From the NCBI GenBank assembly GCA_902762305.1, contig CACWNW010000009.1, positions 1 to 64,000 of the forward strand: a DNA stretch of 64,000 nt, given 5' to 3'. Positions 25,431 through 45,935 of this stretch are shown in pieces (the first letter of the stretch is position 1; the number at the start of each line of letters is the position of its first letter). The notes under the pieces are model-generated. The model ran no database searches and was not told where the DNA came from. It saw only the letters and a program-made list of their open reading frames with translations. This stretch comes from Fibrobacter succinogenes. Lineage in GTDB: Bacteria > Fibrobacterota > Fibrobacteria > Fibrobacterales > Fibrobacteraceae. The position numbers and the translations under genes are program-made.

Positions 25431-26363
25431 TCACAGACTGCGAATAGTCTCTTCAGAGAGATGGGTGTACCGAGAAATTTTGTCAATCGGTTCATTATCC
25501 GCAAGCATTTGCCTTGCCATTTCGAGTTCACGTTCGGAGACACCTTCAGCTACCTTCGCGTTGATTTCATCCGCGAATTCCTCAAAGAAACTTGCCCTCA
25601 GGACATTGTGATCCCATTTTTCGTGGAACATCTTCTGGTATGCCTCGAATTCTTCCTTACTAAACTTAGACACTTTGGAGCTTTCTGTCAAGGATTCGAA
25701 CTTGCGTTCGTCTAGCTCAGCGGGCAGTTCCTTGAGCTTGTCCAGATAGCGAAAGAAAAAAAGCCACTTGCGAATGCTGGATGACCCAGCCTCAATGAAG
25801 AAGGGCACCTTCGAAAGTTCAACCGCCGTAAAATTGTACGAATCTACAAATTGCTCTCCTGTTTCAAGATCCGTGACCGTAGCACGATGAATGATACGAT
25901 CGTCATCAAACATTCTCTGTCGAGTAAAGGCAATGACATAAGTCGGCTTGACATCATAATTCCAATCATCGCCCGGATCAGCTTGGTTGGCAACCATCTC
26001 GCCAGCATAAAAAGCAAGCCGCTTCAAAAAATTGTCCTGCTTACGAATCTGCACCTCAATCTCAATCAGATTATCCATGTCATCCTTGCAATGCAAGTCG
26101 AAAATCGCCGTGCGCGACACCTTACTCCCGCTCATATTGTGCGCTACGTTGCGCGTCTTCACTGTCACGATTGGCCGCTTAAGCTGCGGTTCCAGCAGGT
26201 CGTTTAACAGGTTCACGAGATTCTGCCGGCTGACGGGCTTGTCAGGGTCAAATGCCTTCTTGAAGGCGAAATCCACGAGAAGGTTTGCAAAAGGGCTCTT
26301 TTCGCCCGGCTTCACGATGCAATCCTTGAGAGGCTTGCGCTTAATCTTTTTATGGTTTTCCAT
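25431..26363 (-). CDS. Rpn family recombination-promoting nuclease (PD-(D/E)XK)
   Basis: 310 residues, the usual length for the PDDEXK_2/Rpn family. Start ATG at 26363 has GGAG 6 nt upstream. The nuclease core is visible: FANLLVDFAFKKAF, then AIFDLHCKDDMDNLIEIEVQ (Asp and the E-x-Q of the active site), RLAFYAGEMVANQ and YVIAFTRQ. The helical C-terminus ends in MARQMLADNEPIDKISRYTHLS, the intracellular-localisation-like tail common in the family. Rpn proteins are DNA endonucleases linked to RecA-independent recombination and often called transposases, though no transposon ends are seen here. A structured repeat lies directly upstream. Confidence 0.85.
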   Translation of the reverse strand: MENHKKIKRKPLKDCIVKPGEKSPFANLLVDFAFKKAFDPDKPVSRQNLVNLLNDLLEPQLKRPIVTVKTRNVAHNMSGSKVSRTAIFDLHCKDDMDNLIEIEVQIRKQDNFLKRLAFYAGEMVANQADPGDDWNYDVKPTYVIAFTRQRMFDDDRIIHRATVTDLETGEQFVDSYNFTAVELSKVPFFIEAGSSSIRKWLFFFRYLDKLKELPAELDERKFESLTESSKVSKFSKEEFEAYQKMFHEKWDHNVLRASFFEEFADEINAKVAEGVSERELEMARQMLADNEPIDKISRYTHLSEETIRSL

Positions 26364-26392
26364 ATTATCTCCATTGTATTAAAAACAAAAAT

Positions 26393-26472
26393 GGACCACT
26401 CCGCAAAGCGGAAAATGATCCATAATACCACCTTTTCTGGTGTTTGGAGTAATATACAAAAATTACACGAAC
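26393..26472 (-). repeat. Structured dispersed repeat, copy A
   Basis: This ~80-bp element is shared with 45240-45322. On the minus strand it encodes three consecutive hairpins: GTAAT/ATTAC, CACC-AGAAAA-GGTG, and a long outer hairpin beginning GGATCAT and ending GTGGTCC. Its 5' end overlaps the nitroreductase stop codon, and the Rpn nuclease gene starts 30 nt beyond it. The outer hairpin shows compensatory changes between the copies. Confidence 0.75.
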
Positions 26473-27053
26473 ACGACTTCGTTGCCGACGCGCGGAGATT
26501 CCGCGCGGTTCGGGAGGCCACTCTCCGTATCGGCGTAGCCGATGGCAACGGAGGCGTACACGCGCTCGTCTTCGCGCAAGCCAAGGCCACGCAGGTATTC
26601 CAAAAGCGTCGGGTCTTCGTTCAGCCACTTGAGCTGATTGATGTAGCAACTGCCAAGATCGAGCTCGTTCGCGGCAAGCATCATGTTCTCCACGGCACAG
26701 GCGACATCGGCCATATTGTTGCCGTATTCCTTCTTGTTCGCGACCACGATCAGCACAGGCGCCGTGTAGCAGAACGAGTAGTTGCCTTTACGGGCGAGCG
26801 TAATGGAATTCTTGAGACTCTTGTAAAGGTCTTCGCGAAGTTCCATCGCGGCAAAGGCGGACTGCACGAGTTCCTTGAGCTTCGCAATCACCGAAGCATC
26901 CGAAATCACGAAGAAGTGGTTGCTCTGCGCGTTGCCGCCGGTAGGCCCGAACTGGCCCGCCTCGACAATCTGCTTCAACTTCTCGAGTTCAACAGGCTGA
27001 GCCTTGAACCTGCGGGTACTGCGACGCGTCTTGATGGCTTCGAGTGTGTTCAT
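26463..27053 (-). CDS. Nitroreductase family protein
   Basis: 196 residues, start ATG at 27053 with AAAGGT upstream. The FMN-binding signatures are present: RRSTRRFKAQPVE at the N-terminus, AGQFGPTGGNAQ, and the C-terminal GLREDERVYASVAIGYAD. The family are homodimeric NAD(P)H-dependent flavoproteins reducing nitro compounds, quinones or enones; the natural substrate here is unknown. argA lies 67 nt upstream on the same strand, separated by a dispersed repeat. The C-terminal codons fall in the dispersed structured element described at 26393-26472. Confidence 0.88.
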   Translation of the reverse strand: MNTLEAIKTRRSTRRFKAQPVELEKLKQIVEAGQFGPTGGNAQSNHFFVISDASVIAKLKELVQSAFAAMELREDLYKSLKNSITLARKGNYSFCYTAPVLIVVANKKEYGNNMADVACAVENMMLAANELDLGSCYINQLKWLNEDPTLLEYLRGLGLREDERVYASVAIGYADTESGLPNRAESPRVGNEVVFV

Positions 27054-31694: not shown

Positions 31695-34600
31695 ATGGAA
31701 AAAAAGCGCTATCGCCTCGGAATAGACCTCGGAACGGCAAGCATCGGTACCGCACTTGTTGAATTGGATGGTCCTGCAAATCGTCCTTATCCCACAAATA
31801 TCCTTCACATGGGCGTGCGCATATTTGATGATGGACGTGACCCCAAAACAAAAGTTCCGCTCGGCGTTGCACGCAGAATGGCAAAGCAGAATAGAAAAAT
31901 GCTCGACCGTTACCTTAGGCGCCGCAAGCGCCTTATTGACGCTCTCATTGAATTTAAGATTTGGCCAACAGACGAAGCCCAAAGGAAGGCTCTTTGCCTT
32001 TTGAATCCCTATGATATCAGAACCCGTGCTCTAGACGAGAAGGTTTCTCTGCACGAACTCGGGAGAGCTATTTTCCACCTCAACCAGCGCCGCGGATTCA
32101 AGAGCAACAGAAAGACGGATGGCGGAGAAGACGGCAAAATCAGGCAGGCTGTCGCCAAACTTGAAGAAACATTCCAAAAAGAAGGCTGCCGGACTTTAGG
32201 CGAGTTCTATCAAAAGTGCATTGAAAGAGGTCTATCCGTTCGTGCAAGGTTAGAAGGTGCCGGTGCGAAAGCGGAATATCCATTCTACCCGTCTCGTCAA
32301 ATGATAGAATGCGAATTTGACAAGATTTGGAACAAACAGGCCGAATTCTATCCAGACATTTTAACAAAACAGGCAAAGAAAAAAATCAAAGAAACGCTTC
32401 TCTATCAGCGTCCGTTGAAACCTGTAAAGCCCGGTAAATGTTTCCTAGAACCTAATGAAGACCGCGCTCCAATTGCAAGCCCGTATTTCCAACGCTTTAG
32501 GATTTTACAAACAATCAATGAGTTAAGAATTATCAGCCGTTACGGCGACCAAAGATCACTCACCTTAGAAGAGCGTAATATTCTTCTAGATGATCTTTCG
32601 CAGAAAAAGGAACTGAAATTTTCTGCAGCAAAAAAACTCCTTTCTTTGTCCGTTTACGACAGATTCAGTATCCAAGATGAGCGTCGCGACAAATTCCAGG
32701 GCGACCAGATTGCGGTTTTACTCGGCAACAAGAAATATTTCGGCAAAAATTGGAAATCATTGCCATTAGAAAATCAAAACGCAATCGTTGCTGAACTAAT
32801 CAATCAAGATGATACGGAAAACCTAATTAAGACATTATGCGCATTCGGCCTTTCCAAAGAGGCTGCGGCCCAACTATCCGAAGAAACTCTCCCCACTGGT
32901 TACGGGCGTCTTTCTCTTGTGGCATTGAAGAAAATTATACCCTTCCTTGAAGAAGCTGTCATTACATATTCCGAAGCTGCTGCCAAGGCGGGCTACAACC
33001 ACAGCGATAATTACACCGGAGAAATTTTCCACTATCTACCCTACTACGGGAAAGTCCTTGAAAACAGGGTCATGCGCGGAAGCGGTAACGAAGCCGATAA
33101 TGATGAAGACCGCTATGGTAAAGTCGGTAACCCAACCGTCCACATTGCATTGAATCAACTTCGACGTGTCGTGAACTGCGTCATAAAGCATTTTGGCGCC
33201 CCAGAACAAATCGTTATTGAAGTCGCCCGCGACCTCAAGATGACGCAGGACGAATTAAAAGATTACAAGAAGAAGCAAGCAGACAATGAAAAGCGTAATG
33301 AACGCATTGATGAAGAATTAAGGAAACTGGGTCAATCTGTTAATCGTGAAAATCGCGAACGTTTCAAGTTATGGGAAGAACTTGCCGATGACCCCAAAGA
33401 ACGTTGCTGCCCCTATACAGGCGAATGTATAAGCATGACAAGGCTGTTCTCCGACGAAGTTGAAATAGAACACATTCTTCCGTTCGCGCAAACATACGAA
33501 GATTCATTGGCAAACAAAACGCTTTCCATGCGATACGCCAATAGACTCAAACAAAACCGCTCCCCTTACGAGGCTTTTGCAGAGCATTCCTATAAAGGAA
33601 TCCTCCCTTATCAAAAAATGCTTGACAACCTTCAAAAAAAAGGCAAGGCTTGGGAAAACAAACGTTGGCGTTTTGAAAAAGGGGCGATGGACAGATATAA
33701 CGCAAATGGAGATTTCCAAGCAAGGCAGTTGACTGATACCGCATATGCTTCCCGCTTGGCACTTGAATATCTCAAATTCGTATGTCCCAAGGACTCTATT
33801 TGGGCGATTCCAGGAAAAATGACCTCTATACTTAGGCGTCAATGGGGGCTGAATAGCATTCTTGGCAGGGAAATGCCTGACGGTTCATTTAAAAAAAGCC
33901 GCGACCATCACGGACACCACGCCATTGATGGACTTGTAATTGCCATGACTGATAGAGCGCTACTAAAAAAAGTGTCCAAAATAACCCAACTTAATTGGGA
34001 ACGTCAAGAAAGAATCCTTTCCCATATTGAGCCGCCGATTATTGACATTTTTGACCAAGCAAAAGAACGGCTTTCTCATTTGGTTGTTTCTCATCGCAAA
34101 GATCATGGATTGGGTGGAGCGCTTCATAACGATACCGCCTACGGGATTGTTGGTGAATTTAAAGAAGGCGAGGTTTCTACAGTACGGCATAAAGTTCCGA
34201 TAACATCCATTACAGGTTCAAATTTCAACCAAATTCAAGACGAGTCCATCCGTTATGGCATTCAAAACCTAATAGCGGAATCTTCTTCTGACGCAGCTCT
34301 AAAAGATGCTATCAACGAATACGCAAGCAGGACAGGTATAAGAAGGGTTTCCCTTATAGAAAAATTGTCGGTTGTTCCTATTAAGGATAAATCTGGCCAT
34401 ATCTACAAGGCTTTTAAACCTGATGGTAATTACTGTTATGACATCTGGGCGAATGGTGACAAATGGGAGGGAAAAATCGTCAGCAGATTTGAAGCGAATA
34501 CGCAAGGAGCCAATAAGTCCAAGAACGTATTAATGCGATTAATTGTCGGAGACACAGTTTGCCGCGAAATAAACGGCAAAAAAGATTACCTTCGATTAGT

Positions 34601-34793
34601 AAAAATGTCTTTAGGACGAATTACATTTGCCCCAATTTTTGAAGCGGGAGCATTAAAAACACGTGATAGCGATCCCAAAGACCCATTTAAGTATATCACA
34701 ATATCGCCAAACCTATTAAAACAAAATAAAACTCGACTTATTCACGTAGACGAATGCGGTTTTGTATACGATCCCGGATTTAAGGAGAAATGA
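31695..34793 (+). CDS. cas9: CRISPR-associated endonuclease Cas9, type II-C
   Basis: 1032 residues, in the size range of compact II-C Cas9. Start ATG at 31695 follows AAGGA. RuvC-I is YRLGIDLGTASIG (Asp11); the Arg-rich bridge helix is RKMLDRYLRRRKRLIDAL; RuvC-II is QIVIEVARDLK (Glu509); the HNH domain has a CPYTGE lead-in and EVEIEHILPFAQ with His593; RuvC-III is HGHHAIDGLVIA (His742, Asp745). All nuclease residues are intact, so it should cut both strands of target DNA guided by crRNA:tracrRNA. The gene overlaps cas1 by 4 nt. The PAM-interacting C-terminal domain (about 850-1032) gives no PAM prediction by eye. Confidence 0.96.
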   Translation: MEKKRYRLGIDLGTASIGTALVELDGPANRPYPTNILHMGVRIFDDGRDPKTKVPLGVARRMAKQNRKMLDRYLRRRKRLIDALIEFKIWPTDEAQRKALCLLNPYDIRTRALDEKVSLHELGRAIFHLNQRRGFKSNRKTDGGEDGKIRQAVAKLEETFQKEGCRTLGEFYQKCIERGLSVRARLEGAGAKAEYPFYPSRQMIECEFDKIWNKQAEFYPDILTKQAKKKIKETLLYQRPLKPVKPGKCFLEPNEDRAPIASPYFQRFRILQTINELRIISRYGDQRSLTLEERNILLDDLSQKKELKFSAAKKLLSLSVYDRFSIQDERRDKFQGDQIAVLLGNKKYFGKNWKSLPLENQNAIVAELINQDDTENLIKTLCAFGLSKEAAAQLSEETLPTGYGRLSLVALKKIIPFLEEAVITYSEAAAKAGYNHSDNYTGEIFHYLPYYGKVLENRVMRGSGNEADNDEDRYGKVGNPTVHIALNQLRRVVNCVIKHFGAPEQIVIEVARDLKMTQDELKDYKKKQADNEKRNERIDEELRKLGQSVNRENRERFKLWEELADDPKERCCPYTGECISMTRLFSDEVEIEHILPFAQTYEDSLANKTLSMRYANRLKQNRSPYEAFAEHSYKGILPYQKMLDNLQKKGKAWENKRWRFEKGAMDRYNANGDFQARQLTDTAYASRLALEYLKFVCPKDSIWAIPGKMTSILRRQWGLNSILGREMPDGSFKKSRDHHGHHAIDGLVIAMTDRALLKKVSKITQLNWERQERILSHIEPPIIDIFDQAKERLSHLVVSHRKDHGLGGALHNDTAYGIVGEFKEGEVSTVRHKVPITSITGSNFNQIQDESIRYGIQNLIAESSSDAALKDAINEYASRTGIRRVSLIEKLSVVPIKDKSGHIYKAFKPDGNYCYDIWANGDKWEGKIVSRFEANTQGANKSKNVLMRLIVGDTVCREINGKKDYLRLVKMSLGRITFAPIFEAGALKTRDSDPKDPFKYITISPNLLKQNKTRLIHVDECGFVYDPGFKEK

Positions 34794-35710
34794 TAGGTAG
34801 AATTCTAGAAATAGGAACTCCCGGAAAGTTTTTAAAACTTTTCCGTGGGTTCTGCATTATAGAAGAAAAAGGTTCCGAGTTGGGAAGAATTGCCCTTGAT
34901 GACTTGGAATCTGTCATCCTACATTCTCCCGATGGAATCATATCGTACCAACTGTTAGCAGAATTCGCAGACCGGAATATTCCGGTCATTTTTTGCAACG
35001 AAAAGCACATGCCCATAGGCATATATTGGGGGCTCAACGGGCATTACCAAGGATCCAAACGCATCAATCTACAAGCTCAACTGAGTTTACCCAAAAGAAA
35101 GCAAATATGGCAGCAAATCGTTATTGAAAAAATCAAAAACCAAGCTACCGTATTAAAAGCAGCAAAATTAGACTATCTAGACCTTGAGTATTTTGCAAAT
35201 AACGTAAAATCAGGAGATTCAGACAACCGCGAGGGAATCGCTGCTCAGGCCTACTGGTCTCGACTTTTTGGTTCTGAATTTCGAAGGAATCCCGACTTAG
35301 ATGGGATAAACGCATTTCTAAATTACGGCTATGCCATTTTACGAGCAAGCGTGACTAGAGCAATCGTTGCAGTGGGTTTGCACCCAGCTTTCTCTTTGTT
35401 CCACCACAATTCAGAAGACCCCACCCCTTTGGCAAATGATTTAATGGAGCCATGGCGTCCTATTGTCGATATCGCCGTCTACAAATTGTATCTAGCCGAA
35501 AAATCGGAACTTACCTCAAAAGAAAAAGGGACTCTAACCCAAGTATTAGAATGGGATCTAGAGCTAAACAATCAGCGTTCTCCTCTCCGAATTTGCCTCC
35601 AACGCCTATGCAATAGTTTTGTGGATATCTGTGAAGGGAATTCGTCAAATCTTCTATTTGCCAAAATTCCTTCTATTGAAGAGATTCAAGAAGAATGGTC
35701 TGAAGTTTGA
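34790..35710 (+). CDS. cas1: CRISPR integrase Cas1 (type II)
   Basis: 306 residues, starting in an ATGA overlap with cas9 and supported by AGGAG. Metal-binding residues are visible: Glu in DNREGIAAQAYW, His in AVGLHPAFSLFH and Asp in DLMEPWRPIVD. The N-terminal beta-domain (ILEIGTPGKFLKLFRGF) and the II-type GFDP-equivalent region are normal. With Cas2 it integrates new spacers at the leader end of the array. There is no csn2 or cas4, as expected for subtype II-C. Confidence 0.95.
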   Translation: MIGRILEIGTPGKFLKLFRGFCIIEEKGSELGRIALDDLESVILHSPDGIISYQLLAEFADRNIPVIFCNEKHMPIGIYWGLNGHYQGSKRINLQAQLSLPKRKQIWQQIVIEKIKNQATVLKAAKLDYLDLEYFANNVKSGDSDNREGIAAQAYWSRLFGSEFRRNPDLDGINAFLNYGYAILRASVTRAIVAVGLHPAFSLFHHNSEDPTPLANDLMEPWRPIVDIAVYKLYLAEKSELTSKEKGTLTQVLEWDLELNNQRSPLRICLQRLCNSFVDICEGNSSNLLFAKIPSIEEIQEEWSEV

Positions 35711-36039
35711 AAAGACTTAGTGGATATAGAATTTTGTGGCTGATGGTCCTTTTTGATTTACCTGTTGTTGAAGAGCCCGATAGAAAGGCCGCAACGGCTT
35801 TTCGGCAATTTCTGCTAGACGAAGGATTTGAAATGGCCCAATTTTCAGTTTATATGCGGCACTGTTCCGGCAAGGAACATGCAGAAAAATACTACCGCCA
35901 TATAGAAATGAACCTTCCTCCTGGAGGCAAGGTTCACATCATCACAATAACAGACAAACAATTTGAAAACATCGTGCGTTTTCAAAACAGTTTTCAAGAG
36001 CCTCGCAAAAAAAATCCAGACCAGTTATGCCTGTTCTAG
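35707..36039 (+). CDS. cas2: CRISPR-associated protein Cas2
   Basis: 110 residues from TTG at 35707, overlapping the cas1 stop by 4 nt. The opening RLSGYRILWLMVLFDLPV and the middle FEMAQFSVYMRHC match type II-C Cas2 along its full length, which favours the TTG over the internal ATG at 35743. The C-terminus GGKVHIITITDKQFENIVRF is also typical. It forms the structural core of the Cas1-Cas2 integrase. A T-run follows the stop codon and may end the cas transcript just before the array. Confidence 0.93.
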   Translation: MKRLSGYRILWLMVLFDLPVVEEPDRKAATAFRQFLLDEGFEMAQFSVYMRHCSGKEHAEKYYRHIEMNLPPGGKVHIITITDKQFENIVRFQNSFQEPRKKNPDQLCLF

Positions 36040-36110
36040 CTTTTTTTTGCCCGTTTTTCTGGCGGATTAGTCGGCTAACCTGCTGTTTTACAACACTTTA
36101 GCGCGAAACT
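36040..36110. other. Putative spacer-insertion leader between cas2 and the array
   Basis: 71 bp between the cas2 stop and the first intact repeat, with a T8 run at 36042-36049 and TTTACAACACTTTAGCGCG next to the repeat. The array decays at its opposite end, so new spacers most likely enter here. Confidence 0.5.
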
Positions 36111-38057
36111 AATATAGAAACTTAGGAAATGAGGTTTCGCCAGAACGAAAAATTCTGATGCGGGAATGTAGTCTTCAATATAGAAACTTAGGAAATGAGG
36201 TTTCGCCAGAACTCGCCAGAGCAAGCGTCTCGCTATTTTTTAAATATAGAAACTTAGGAAATGAGGTTTCGCCAGAACTGAGATAGTTAACGGGGAGCAG
36301 AAATTTTAAATATAGAAACTTAGGAAATGAGGTTTCGCCAGAACAGAATTGATTGATGTTTATGTTGATTGAAAAATATAGAAACTTAGGAAATGAGGTT
36401 TCGCCAGAACGACCCACAACTCACGCAACAGCAACAAGAAATATAGAAACTTAGGAAATGAGGTTTCGCCAGAACACTTTCATCTTCGACATAAAACCAA
36501 GGTCTAATATAGAAACTTAGGAAATGAGGTTTCGCCAGAACCCGCCGGGCGTCCCGGACCTCGCCCGAGTGAATATAGAAACTTAGGAAATGAGGTTTCG
36601 CCAGAACCACCTGTCGCAAATTAACGTAATGTTCATAAATATAGAAACTTAGGAAATGAGGTTTCGCCAGAACTTGGCGATGGGCTTGTTCAGGTTCCCA
36701 AGAAATATAGAAACTTAGGAAATGAGGTTTCGCCAGAACTCGGACTATTCTGAGGAAGAGCGTCTACTTAATATAGAAACTTAGGAAATGAGGTTTCGCC
36801 AGAACCATATTAAGCTTAAGTATTTGAGCGCGCTTAATATAGAAACTTAGGAAATGAGGTTTCGCCAGAACCAGCGTGATTCTGTTAAGCTCGAAACGGC
36901 TAATATAGAAACTTAGGAAATGAGGTTTCGCCAGAACAAGTCAATTGTCTGTTCCGACAGGTCGTGGAATATAGAAACTTAGGAAATGAGGTTTCGCCAG
37001 AACGATTACATCGATGTAACGTATGACAGTTTGAATATAGAAACTTAGGAAATGAGGTTTCGCCAGAACTCACCGACACCCTTTCCGACATACTCACCAA
37101 TATAGAAACTTAGGAAATGAGGTTTCGCCAGAACCTGAAAGCAAATCACAACATATTACCGGACAATATAGAAACTTAGGAAATGAGGTTTCGCCAGAAC
37201 TCCGTGAGTGGCTTTGGCGTGAATATGATTAATATAGAAACTTAGGAAATGAGGTTTCGCCAGAACTGGATAGGATGTGTCGGCCTCGCGACGATGAATA
37301 TAGAAACTTAGGAAATGAGGTTTCGCCAGAACTTCGACTGCCGCCCTGCCCATCTAAAGTTTAATATAGAAACTTAGGAAATGAGGTTTCGCCAGAACAT
37401 GCTCGCTATCGAGGATTCGTTCGAGACTAATATAGAAACTTAGGAAATGAGGTTTCGCCAGAACTCGCACGTTAAACAAGTAAGAGTGCACGCCAAATAT
37501 AGAAACTTAGGAAATGAGGTTTCGCCAGAACAATACAATGCGATGTGGCGCAAGAAGAACAAATATAGAAACTTAGGAAATGAGGTTTCGCCAGAACTCA
37601 CGGGAACCATGATGCGCAACAAACCCGAATATAGAAACTTAGGAAATGAGGTTTCGCCAGAACTCCCTGCGTAGTTCTGAATTAGGCATATTGAATATAG
37701 AAACTTAGGAAATGAGGTTTCGCCAGAACAAGGGATCCGGCTTATAGTTCTTAATGCTAAATATAGAAACTTAGGAAATGAGGTTTCGCCAGAACAGTTC
37801 AAGCATTCTCCGCATGCGGACAAAGAATATAGAAACTTAGGAAATGAGGTTTCGCCAGAACTGTTGAACTTGGCACCAAAATTTTTGATTTAATATAGAA
37901 ACTTAGGAAATGAGGTTTCGCCAGAACAGACCCATGTATTCCACGTCCGGCTCGTGAATATAGAAACTTAGGAAACAAGGTCTCGTTAGAACCTTCTATG
38001 TCACAATGTTCGCTAATATTAAATATAGAAATTTATGAAACAAAATTTCGCCAAAGC
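36111..38057 (-). CRISPR. Type II-C CRISPR array, 30 repeats and 29 spacers
   Basis: Repeat length is 36 bp; on the plus strand it begins AATATAGAAACTTAGG and ends GAGGTTTCGCCAGAAC. Twenty-eight copies appear identical (starts 36111, 36177 ... 37892). Copies 29 (37957-37992) and 30 (38022-38057) are degenerate, the last with about nine changes. Spacers are 29-31 nt, mostly 30. The tracrRNA anti-repeat is on the minus strand, so crRNAs read right to left with the repeat as GTTCTGGCGAAACC...TTTCTATATT. In that direction each repeat ends in TATATT, a -10-like hexamer. No spacer source could be searched. Confidence 0.98.
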
Positions 38058-38228
38058 AAAATTTTACTGTCGTCGACATGGTTGGCAAATATGCCATGTA
38101 TTTTTGTGGCAGTCCAAATACTTGAAAAGCCGTTATTTTCAGCGATCAACAACCCACCATTCCTCCCCCATTTTCACACAAAAATCCTATAAAACTATTT
38201 TACGTCATTTTATGACACACCCTAAATC

Positions 38229-44125: not shown

Positions 44126-45214
44126 CTATTCCCCCTCTTCCTGTAGCCTCTCAAACAGTGTGTGATACCCCGCGATATCTTCCAGCTGCATGATGGTCGT
44201 AATCTTGTTCCCCGCGTCCTTACTTGACGCCCCGCAGTGGAAAAGTTTCTCGCTGTCGGTCCCGAAATCCAGATAGATGTACCTGTCGTGGAACATGTTC
44301 CCCGTGGTGCGAACATCGTCAAGTTCAACGTCCGGGCGGGCAGCCCTGAAATCCGCCAGCATGCTCTCGGTCAGGCGGGTACGCCCGTGCTGCTCGCTGA
44401 AAATCTTGACAGAAACGTTCTTCTCCACGCACCGCAACAAATCGAGCGTCTTTGCATCCAGGTAATCGTCAACAATCAGCACCGACTTTTTCGCCATGCC
44501 GTAGATTTGCGTGTAGGCGACGTCGGCCTCCAGGCGTTGCCCGTTCAGAATCAAGAAGTGCTTGAAGGTGCTCGGGTCAATGAAATTTGCCATGACTTTC
44601 TGGAGGAAATTCTCGTTTCGCTCCACTTTGTTCGAAAGCGCGCGGACATCCGTGGCAATCTCGGCGATATCCCGCGTGTTCTGGCTCGTCTGCGTCGCCA
44701 AGGCGACCATCCCCGCAGAAATATCCGGCGCATTCTCCGCCGCAATGTAGTCCTTCATCTGCTTGAAAAGACGGATAAGGGCTTTGCTCTGTGCAGTCGC
44801 CTGTTCGCCCTTAAGAACCGTCATGAGCATGTAGATGCCCTGCTCCGTGAAGGCATAAGGAGCGTACCTAACACCGCCCCAACTTGAGGCCGATTTTTTC
44901 GACCTCAAGTTATCATTTTGGCTAAATTCATCTGTTTTCGAAGTTTTTTCTGTGGTCAAGGACGAAAATTTCGACCTCGATAATAACGATATCTCGGCTT
45001 CATTCAATTGAAACCGAAAATCCTCATCAAATTTGGCGATATTATTCTTGACCTGTTCATTAAATCTCTTCGTACTATACCCGTAAATCTCCGCCAAATC
45101 GGCATCGAGCATGACCTTTACCCCGCGGATAGTGTATATCCGCGACTTGAGCAAATCCTCGTCTATCAGGCTAAATTCGGGCTTTTTCGGCGAGAGGGTC
45201 ACGTTTTTCTTCAT
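44126..45214 (-). CDS. ORF6N/KilA-N domain protein
   Basis: 362 residues from ATG at 45214, chosen because AAGGAG lies 7 nt upstream. Residues ~15-105 are an ORF6N domain (SRIYTIRGVKVMLDADLAEIYGYSTKRFNEQVKNN, in parts: IRGVKVMLDADLAEIYG; STKRFNEQVKNNIAKF; GGVRYAPYAFTEQGIYML). The rest is helical, then an alpha/beta part (YGMAKKSVLIVDDYLDAKTLDLL, MFHDRYIYLDFG) with an HD-R-like phospholipase-D-style strand. ORF6N proteins are DNA-binding proteins common in phages and mobile islands. Copy B of the structured repeat lies just upstream. Confidence 0.8.
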   Translation of the reverse strand: MKKNVTLSPKKPEFSLIDEDLLKSRIYTIRGVKVMLDADLAEIYGYSTKRFNEQVKNNIAKFDEDFRFQLNEAEISLLSRSKFSSLTTEKTSKTDEFSQNDNLRSKKSASSWGGVRYAPYAFTEQGIYMLMTVLKGEQATAQSKALIRLFKQMKDYIAAENAPDISAGMVALATQTSQNTRDIAEIATDVRALSNKVERNENFLQKVMANFIDPSTFKHFLILNGQRLEADVAYTQIYGMAKKSVLIVDDYLDAKTLDLLRCVEKNVSVKIFSEQHGRTRLTESMLADFRAARPDVELDDVRTTGNMFHDRYIYLDFGTDSEKLFHCGASSKDAGNKITTIMQLEDIAGYHTLFERLQEEGE

Positions 45215-45239
45215 TTTTGGCTCCTTTTGCATAAAAAAA

Positions 45240-45322
45240 GGACCGTCCCGCCTTTACGCGGAAAACGATCCATAATACCACCTTTTCTGGTGCAGGGAGT
45301 AATATACAAAAATTACACGAAC
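45240..45322 (-). repeat. Structured dispersed repeat, copy B
   Basis: The match to 26393-26472 includes CATAATACCACC with TTTTCTGGTG and GAGTAATATACAAAAATTAC. The outer hairpin has GGATCGT paired with ACGGTCC, versus GGATCAT with GTGGTCC in copy A, so pairing is kept while bases differ. As in copy A, it starts at the stop codon of one minus-strand gene and precedes the start of the next. Confidence 0.75.
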
Positions 45323-45732
45323 TCGACTATGAGTTGTTTGCCGAGGGCGTGTGCCAGCTTGTAGAGCGTTTCGACGGAAGGCGAGCCCTTCGGAGTCTCG
45401 AAACGCTGGTACGCTTGCGGGGTGATGTTTGCGCGACGCGCCACCTCGCTCTTCTTTTGTCCCCTGCGCGCTTCGAATAGTTTGTACGCAATCTCGATTC
45501 GCGGGGAAAGCTCGACCGGGTAGAGCCCCTTGTCGGAATCGGGCTCCGTCTTGGGGAGGATCATCGTATTGCCGAGATCCAGGTCGCATTCCATCGCACC
45601 GTCGAGCGCATCCTTCGCCTGCCTGAGGGCCTCTTCCTGCGTGTCGCCGAACGCGTTCACGTTGGGTAGGTCAGGGAACGAAACCACGAAGCCCATGTCC
45701 TTGTCTTTCTCAATTTTTGCTGCGTAATTCAT
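45313..45732 (-). CDS. HicB-like antitoxin with XRE helix-turn-helix
   Basis: 139 residues from ATG at 45732 (MNYAAKIEKDKDMGFVVSFP). The N-terminal half is a HicB RNase-H-like fold (GFVVSFPDLPNVNAFGDTQEEALRQAKDALDGAM, in parts: GFVVSFPDLPNVNAFGDTQ; EEALRQAKDALDGAM). The C-terminal half is an XRE-type HTH (KKSEVARRANITPQAYQRFE). HicB proteins neutralise the HicA mRNase toxin, but no HicA-like small frame is seen on either side, so this is a solitary antitoxin or a repurposed regulator. Its last codons lie in the structured repeat. Confidence 0.8.
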   Translation of the reverse strand: MNYAAKIEKDKDMGFVVSFPDLPNVNAFGDTQEEALRQAKDALDGAMECDLDLGNTMILPKTEPDSDKGLYPVELSPRIEIAYKLFEARRGQKKSEVARRANITPQAYQRFETPKGSPSVETLYKLAHALGKQLIVEFV

Positions 45733-45935
45733 GGTTGATGCCCTTGGTTGAGTTATAGGGGAAAAATACAATATATTTGTTTATTTATCAATAGATTGAT
45801 TTATAAAATAGACCATTTTCGATGGTTTTATGCCTGAAACGGCTTGATTGGCAGAAAAAGCTGCGACCAAATGCAAAATCGATATAAAAAATACCGAAAA
45901 AAGATTTGGTGGGGCGAAAATTGGAGGGGAACGCC

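Follow-up and report, generated by a model that had tools for sequence, protein, structure and literature searches.

A structured leader, probably a transcription attenuator, precedes unrelated accessory genes in Fibrobacter

Introduction

What role could two short structured elements play in a stretch of Fibrobacter succinogenes DNA where one stands before an Rpn nuclease gene and the other before a gene for an ORF6N-domain protein? A preliminary description of this stretch (64,000 nucleotides, called the window below and meaning all of the DNA analysed) took each element to consist of three hairpins, and offered three readings of them: a regulatory RNA, a mobile cassette boundary or a REP-like sequence. 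The analysis reported here partly supports that interpretation. The regulatory RNA reading is backed by covariation, by a constant order of promoter, hairpin, terminator and gene, and by spread through the genus, and we consider the element to be probably a promoter-proximal transcription attenuator which keeps the expression of defence-type genes low, with read-through possibly raised via its first hairpin.

Results

The two window copies share one promoter-hairpin-terminator anatomy

A covariance model recovered both copies at about the places first described and found no further copy in the window. Copy 1 spans 26386-26456 (81.7 bits, E 6.9e-19) and copy 2 spans 45233-45306 (87.3 bits, E 2.2e-20), both on the minus strand, which is the functional one. 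Read along that strand, the parts are TTTTTG-TATATT, a spacer (usually 9 nt), hairpin 1, a linker, a GC-rich stem, a U-run, a ribosome site and the start codon, with a near-invariant 5' hairpin, CACCAGAAANGGTG, and the linker NTATT(A) as the consensus.

In copy 1 (all features on the minus strand), TTTTTG (26457-26462) lies immediately 5' of the -10-like box TATATT (26451-26456) and abuts the stop codon of the upstream nitroreductase gene (26463-27053), a conserved locus. Hairpin 1, CACCAGAAAAGGTG, occupies 26429-26442, is near-invariant across 61 distinct leaders, and is expected to lie among the first nucleotides of the RNA. It is followed by the linker GTATTA (26423-26428), which is shared with sister leaders that have another hairpin 1, and by hairpin 2 (26391-26423), a GC-rich terminator stem with covarying pairs whose outermost base overlaps the linker and inside which a terminator-like site was reported at 26396-26411. 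The U-run TTTTGTTTTT (26381-26390) comes next, and downstream of it is a gene for an Rpn/PD-(D/E)XK nuclease (25431-26363; PDDEXK_2, Pfam E 5.9e-37).

Copy 2, also on the minus strand, has its -10 box at 45301-45306, hairpin 1 at 45279-45292, the linker at 45273-45278, the terminator stem at 45240-45271 and the U-run at 45233-45239. It lies between an upstream gene for a HicB-like/HTH protein (45313-45771) and the downstream ORF6N-domain gene (44126-45214, Pfam E 1.1e-28), whose start with a ribosome site is at 45214, the longest open reading frame running from 45232; both genes are on the minus strand as well.

Each copy thus has two hairpins rather than three, the inner and outer stems of the preliminary description being a single long hairpin with a U-run behind it, and the interval first assigned to copy 1 took in the last nitroreductase bases and omitted the U-run. 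The reported stem change from CAT/GTG to CGT/ACG was confirmed in the two window copies, as was the inner length change, which falls in the inner loop. Both leader RNAs fold far more stably than their dinucleotide shuffles (z -4.8 for copy 1 and -3.8 for copy 2), with none of 200 shuffles equal to them.

As a separate observation, the DNA between the two copies holds a Type II CRISPR-Cas locus (31695-38063; Cas9 of 1032 aa, Cas1, Cas2) with an array of ~30 repeats spaced 66 bp, and on the minus strand each repeat has TTTCTATATT, a possible promoter within every repeat.

The leader is widespread in the genus and its pairing is conserved

The first copies in the genus were gathered by DNA similarity, and a covariance model was built from 24 copies, a strong match being one with E below 1e-9, although these E-values are rough owing to the construction of the tool. 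Strong matches numbered 66, spread over 40 of the 80 genomes examined from Fibrobacter; the window's own genome contributes four, and the 24 genomes taken from elsewhere in the phylum, outside the genus, contribute none. When 84,980 species were scanned with a sequence pattern, 30 stretches came up, all titled Fibrobacter except one from an unclassified rumen bin, and a leader search of 2.9 million viral contigs gave no match. Since the assemblies are mostly metagenome bins, absence from any one genome is weak evidence. Weak matches (E 1e-4 to 1e-2) were left out of the counts; some are ordinary intergenic terminators (L103) and others are sister leaders.

The preliminary description had named two outcomes that would tell against it, namely that only its two copies exist or that extra copies break the pairing. 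The 66 copies instead pair in 95.2% of cells, hairpin 1 alone in 99%, and the proposed covariance-model check revealed further compensatory changes: six pairs change on both sides, every one of them in stem 2. The covariation score is 0.208, compared with 0.151 +/- 0.007 for shuffled alignments, and none of 500 shuffles or of the slid controls came up to it. The alignment is model-fitted and so leans towards the structure, but a MAFFT alignment of 24 copies, independent of the model, already has four both-sides pairs. Stem 2 averages -17.0 kcal/mol over the 66 copies, all of which have 6-8 T among the first 8 tail bases. The -10 box and its spacing were recognised in 64 of 66, and TTTTTG at -6..-1 is conserved at 70-94% per position.

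Hairpin 1 is conserved letter by letter

Because hairpin 1 hardly varies, it lacks covariation. Entropy per column is ~0 at CACC, AGAAA and GGTG, with one loop position and one linker position varying freely. Invariant letters interspersed with variable positions favour site-specific recognition over mere recent copying, and this pattern in the aligned leaders suggests a factor that reads hairpin 1. Sister leaders, which were reached via another gene family, have hairpin 1 replaced by GCCGG..CCGGC (with one both-sides change) and retain the position, -10 box, linker and terminator; they number 11 strong copies, one of them in the window's own genome at G000:C6:74518. Their different hairpin implies that the types share hairpin 1 as a shape, and that copies of the main type share its sequence.

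Several regulatory devices were considered and rejected. No conserved alternative pairing (antiterminator) was seen among the leaders, the candidates AAAAGG/CCTTTT tail and GTATTA/TAATAC occurring, by eye, in single copies or subsets only. A leader peptide (ATGGATCAT... MDHFPLC) or an in-frame gene fusion fails because neither the ATG nor the frame is conserved. In T-box leaders a conserved UGGN bulge pairs with the tRNA end; for such a reading of AAAGGGTGGTA, the second G of UGGU varies (A, C, G, T) and there is no room for stem I. Nor was a trans factor for hairpin 1 found. As to a dedicated NusG paralog, near-complete genomes with the element carry one NusG (e.g. G014, G026, G029, G030, G033, G063, G064) and second copies occur only in G022, G032 and G084, so extra paralogs do not accompany the element and an antiterminator of the LoaP/RfaH type is unlikely.

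The failure to find a trans factor or an alternative pairing fits an unregulated throttle, in which promoter and terminator fix a low expression of potentially toxic genes and hairpin 1 merely stabilises the 5' end. The toxin- or defence-like products also agree with it. However, hairpin 1 keeps loop letters besides its pairing, and neither a plain throttle nor a stabilising stem needs such letters, so we regard this account as unlikely.

The leader is placed before accessory genes of unrelated families

The preliminary description had each element begin at a minus-strand stop codon and end just before the next gene start. The stop codon proved incidental, the upstream flank being arbitrary in other copies, whereas the downstream edge keeps its place: the distance from it to a start codon is 13-28 nt in 54 of 66 copies. 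The predicted preference for 3' ends of genes fails, since copies prefer 5' ends. REP/BIME elements are palindromes between genes, typically at 3' ends and in either orientation; the leader copies have a fixed orientation, a place at gene starts and a -10 box, and the REP-like reading was dropped.

The same constancy bears on whether the element could be a gene for a trans-acting small RNA that adjoins other genes by linkage. It does make up a small transcription unit in itself, complete with promoter, terminator and a strongly conserved 5' sequence, but orientation and distance to the next start hold across those 54 copies, and the gene would otherwise be left without promoter space. We consider a free-standing small RNA highly improbable.

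Downstream genes were sorted by keyword classification, with families assigned by Pfam. ORF6N genes follow 20 of the 66 copies, a GVFASR-marked family of 163 residues 14, RhuM 13, RelB-type genes 5, YhcG 4, Rpn 2, Schlafen/AlbA_2 1 and an AAA ATPase 1, the other 6 being broken or other genes. Two of the five RelB-type genes begin ~100 nt downstream, and in one of these cases an apparent RhuM remnant intervenes. PADLOC lists RhuM and ORF6N (PDC-S05) and YhcG (PDC-S02) as candidates with a predicted defence role, and in the PADLOC comparison the AAA ATPase resembles AbiL/AriA, giving it a candidate defence function. By these predictions, the downstream genes are unrelated accessory families, mostly of toxin or defence type. 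The 163-residue family (L095 4496-4984 and relatives; G000:C6:74651-75112 in the window's own genome), often found behind an attenuator-type leader, matches no Pfam family; DprA is a match for the model predicted for it (mean pLDDT 77), with the defence proteins ShosA and ThsA-SLOG lower in the list, which makes this DprA/SLOG-fold family a candidate defence or DNA-uptake gene.

A terminator-like stem lies 14-60 nt before the start of 35 of 43 leader genes versus 5 of 404 other genes, these controls being neighbours at loci fetched for the element or for these families and not a random sample. Among ORF6N, RhuM and 163-residue-family genes that have no leader, 10 of 43 have such a stem near the start. 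The leader is present on only part of the ORF6N/RhuM genes, which counts against an attenuator.

Other leader types were observed at related genes. One, 5' of ORF6N/RhuM genes (L136, L143, L144, L145, L146, L148, L151, L159, L170, L174), has a TTGACA-TATATT-like promoter in several cases, ACAAGTGTGTA, and a hairpin with the loop TTTTTGCTTGT abutting the ribosome site, and its ACAAGT could pair with GCTTGT in a possible pseudoknot over the translation start. Two more promoter-structure-terminator types precede ORF6N/RhuM genes (CACCGGTAGCGG...GCCGACTTTTTTT and CCGTATTTCTATATCCCATAGC...GGGCTATGGAAATACGGCTTTTTT; L135, L139, L160, L161, L181). At L342 (1501-1841) and L344, a truncated ToxN-like gene follows a leader whose structure includes a GTATTTA linker and a terminator, apparently a type III toxin-antitoxin remnant.

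Leaders travel with genes and are swapped between them

On the leader tree, which is poorly resolved because it rests on few columns, ORF6N needs 13 changes and RhuM 11, with well-supported branches forcing at least 5 and at least 7, respectively; the 163-residue family forms a single group. The nitroreductase locus carries the leader and an Rpn gene in the window's own genome, the leader and an ORF6N gene in other genomes, and no leader in others. Similarity between two Rpn copies found at separate sites begins 6 nt 5' of the -10 box and extends across most of the gene. Taken together, the tree, the variation at the nitroreductase site and the alignable Rpn unit indicate that the module travels with genes and has been swapped between gene families.

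At two loci, L198 (G070:C26:308120) and L224 (G087:C3:22842), a deletion at the short shared sequence TCGCGG has joined the leader into an ORF6N gene, and each fusion is a decayed cassette; the L198 copy stands 5' of an intact one.

Movement of this kind would fit a conserved object at the DNA level, either an operator around the point where transcription begins or a terminus at which a mobile leader-gene cassette recombines: leader and Rpn gene form an alignable unit at two sites, the nitroreductase site may be vacant or hold an ORF6N or an Rpn gene depending on the genome, and leaders pass between families. The cassette boundary of the preliminary description holds to that extent, but the boundaries vary, no recombinase or far-end repeat was noticed at the loci compared, and a stem that has six covarying pairs and leads into a U-run is in keeping with RNA. 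A DNA-level element thus seems very remote.

Discussion

The leader has the architecture of an attenuator, with a stable GC-rich stem and a U-run between promoter and start codon. Expression of the gene must pass the terminator because the usual gap of 13-28 nt between U-run and start is too small for another promoter; this lack of room, together with the order of the parts, argues for premature termination. From these features we infer a transcription start, genuine termination, regulation and a signal. RNA polymerase would start at the TATATT promoter and make a short RNA of ~60 nt that begins near hairpin 1, most rounds would stop at the U-run past hairpin 2, and the accessory gene would be reached by read-through alone. 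The site at which a trans factor or condition is recognised, so as to increase read-through, would probably be hairpin 1, whose AGAAA loop bases are invariant, together with the linker. A broader version, which we hold to be quite unlikely, would be a genus-wide immunity RNA regulon in which a swappable leader places many unrelated phage-defence and toxin genes behind a common terminator, to be overridden once phage infection or stress changes transcription termination, antitermination being the infection signal.

The window has no Rfam 15 family at gathering score, nor do eight loci under permissive settings, and a description of the motif is absent from the literature searched. The leader is thus an undescribed structured RNA common to at least eight unrelated accessory families, mostly toxin- or defence-type; to our knowledge, known leaders of such a kind serve one system each. 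If attenuation is correct, it would offer a simple handle on how toxin and defence genes stay silent and when they are released, and the leader would mark its less familiar neighbours, such as the DprA/SLOG-fold family, as candidate immunity genes.

Among known systems, lambda boxB has a short stem with an A-rich loop that includes GAAA, and a terminator follows it; the Fibrobacter leader is similar, although the stem and closing pairs differ and sister leaders drop the GAAA loop. The LoaP-controlled dfn and mln leaders combine a UNCG hairpin with a NusG paralog (PMC12691694). They too place a small recognition hairpin and then an intrinsic terminator in the 5' leader, but near-complete Fibrobacter genomes with the element have one NusG only.

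RNA and terminator also precede the toxin gene in type III toxin-antitoxin systems (ToxIN). In Clostridioides difficile, the RNA RCd22 stands before abiF; it shows strong termination, bears the abiF motifs of Rfam and binds the toxin of its own system, and expression of abiF rose 17-fold when the RNA including its terminator was deleted (PMC12373285). The Fibrobacter RNA could likewise be an antitoxin, a short terminated RNA that binds and silences the protein encoded downstream: the gene order is that of RCd22-abiF (PMC12373285) and of type III systems, and one distant sister-type leader stands before the truncated ToxN-like gene. We judge this very unlikely. The leader, unlike ToxIN, has no tandem repeats and is not bound to a ToxN-like protein, it has no Rfam match, and a single leader type stands before the genes of eight or more unrelated protein families, between which it has moved, whereas type III and AbiF RNAs have one RNA type per cognate toxin family. 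Toxin binding is therefore unlikely as the main role in Fibrobacter. With its promoter, short structured RNA, intrinsic terminator, ribosome site and anti-phage-type gene, and no second promoter, the RCd22/AbiF leader is nonetheless the nearest studied case.
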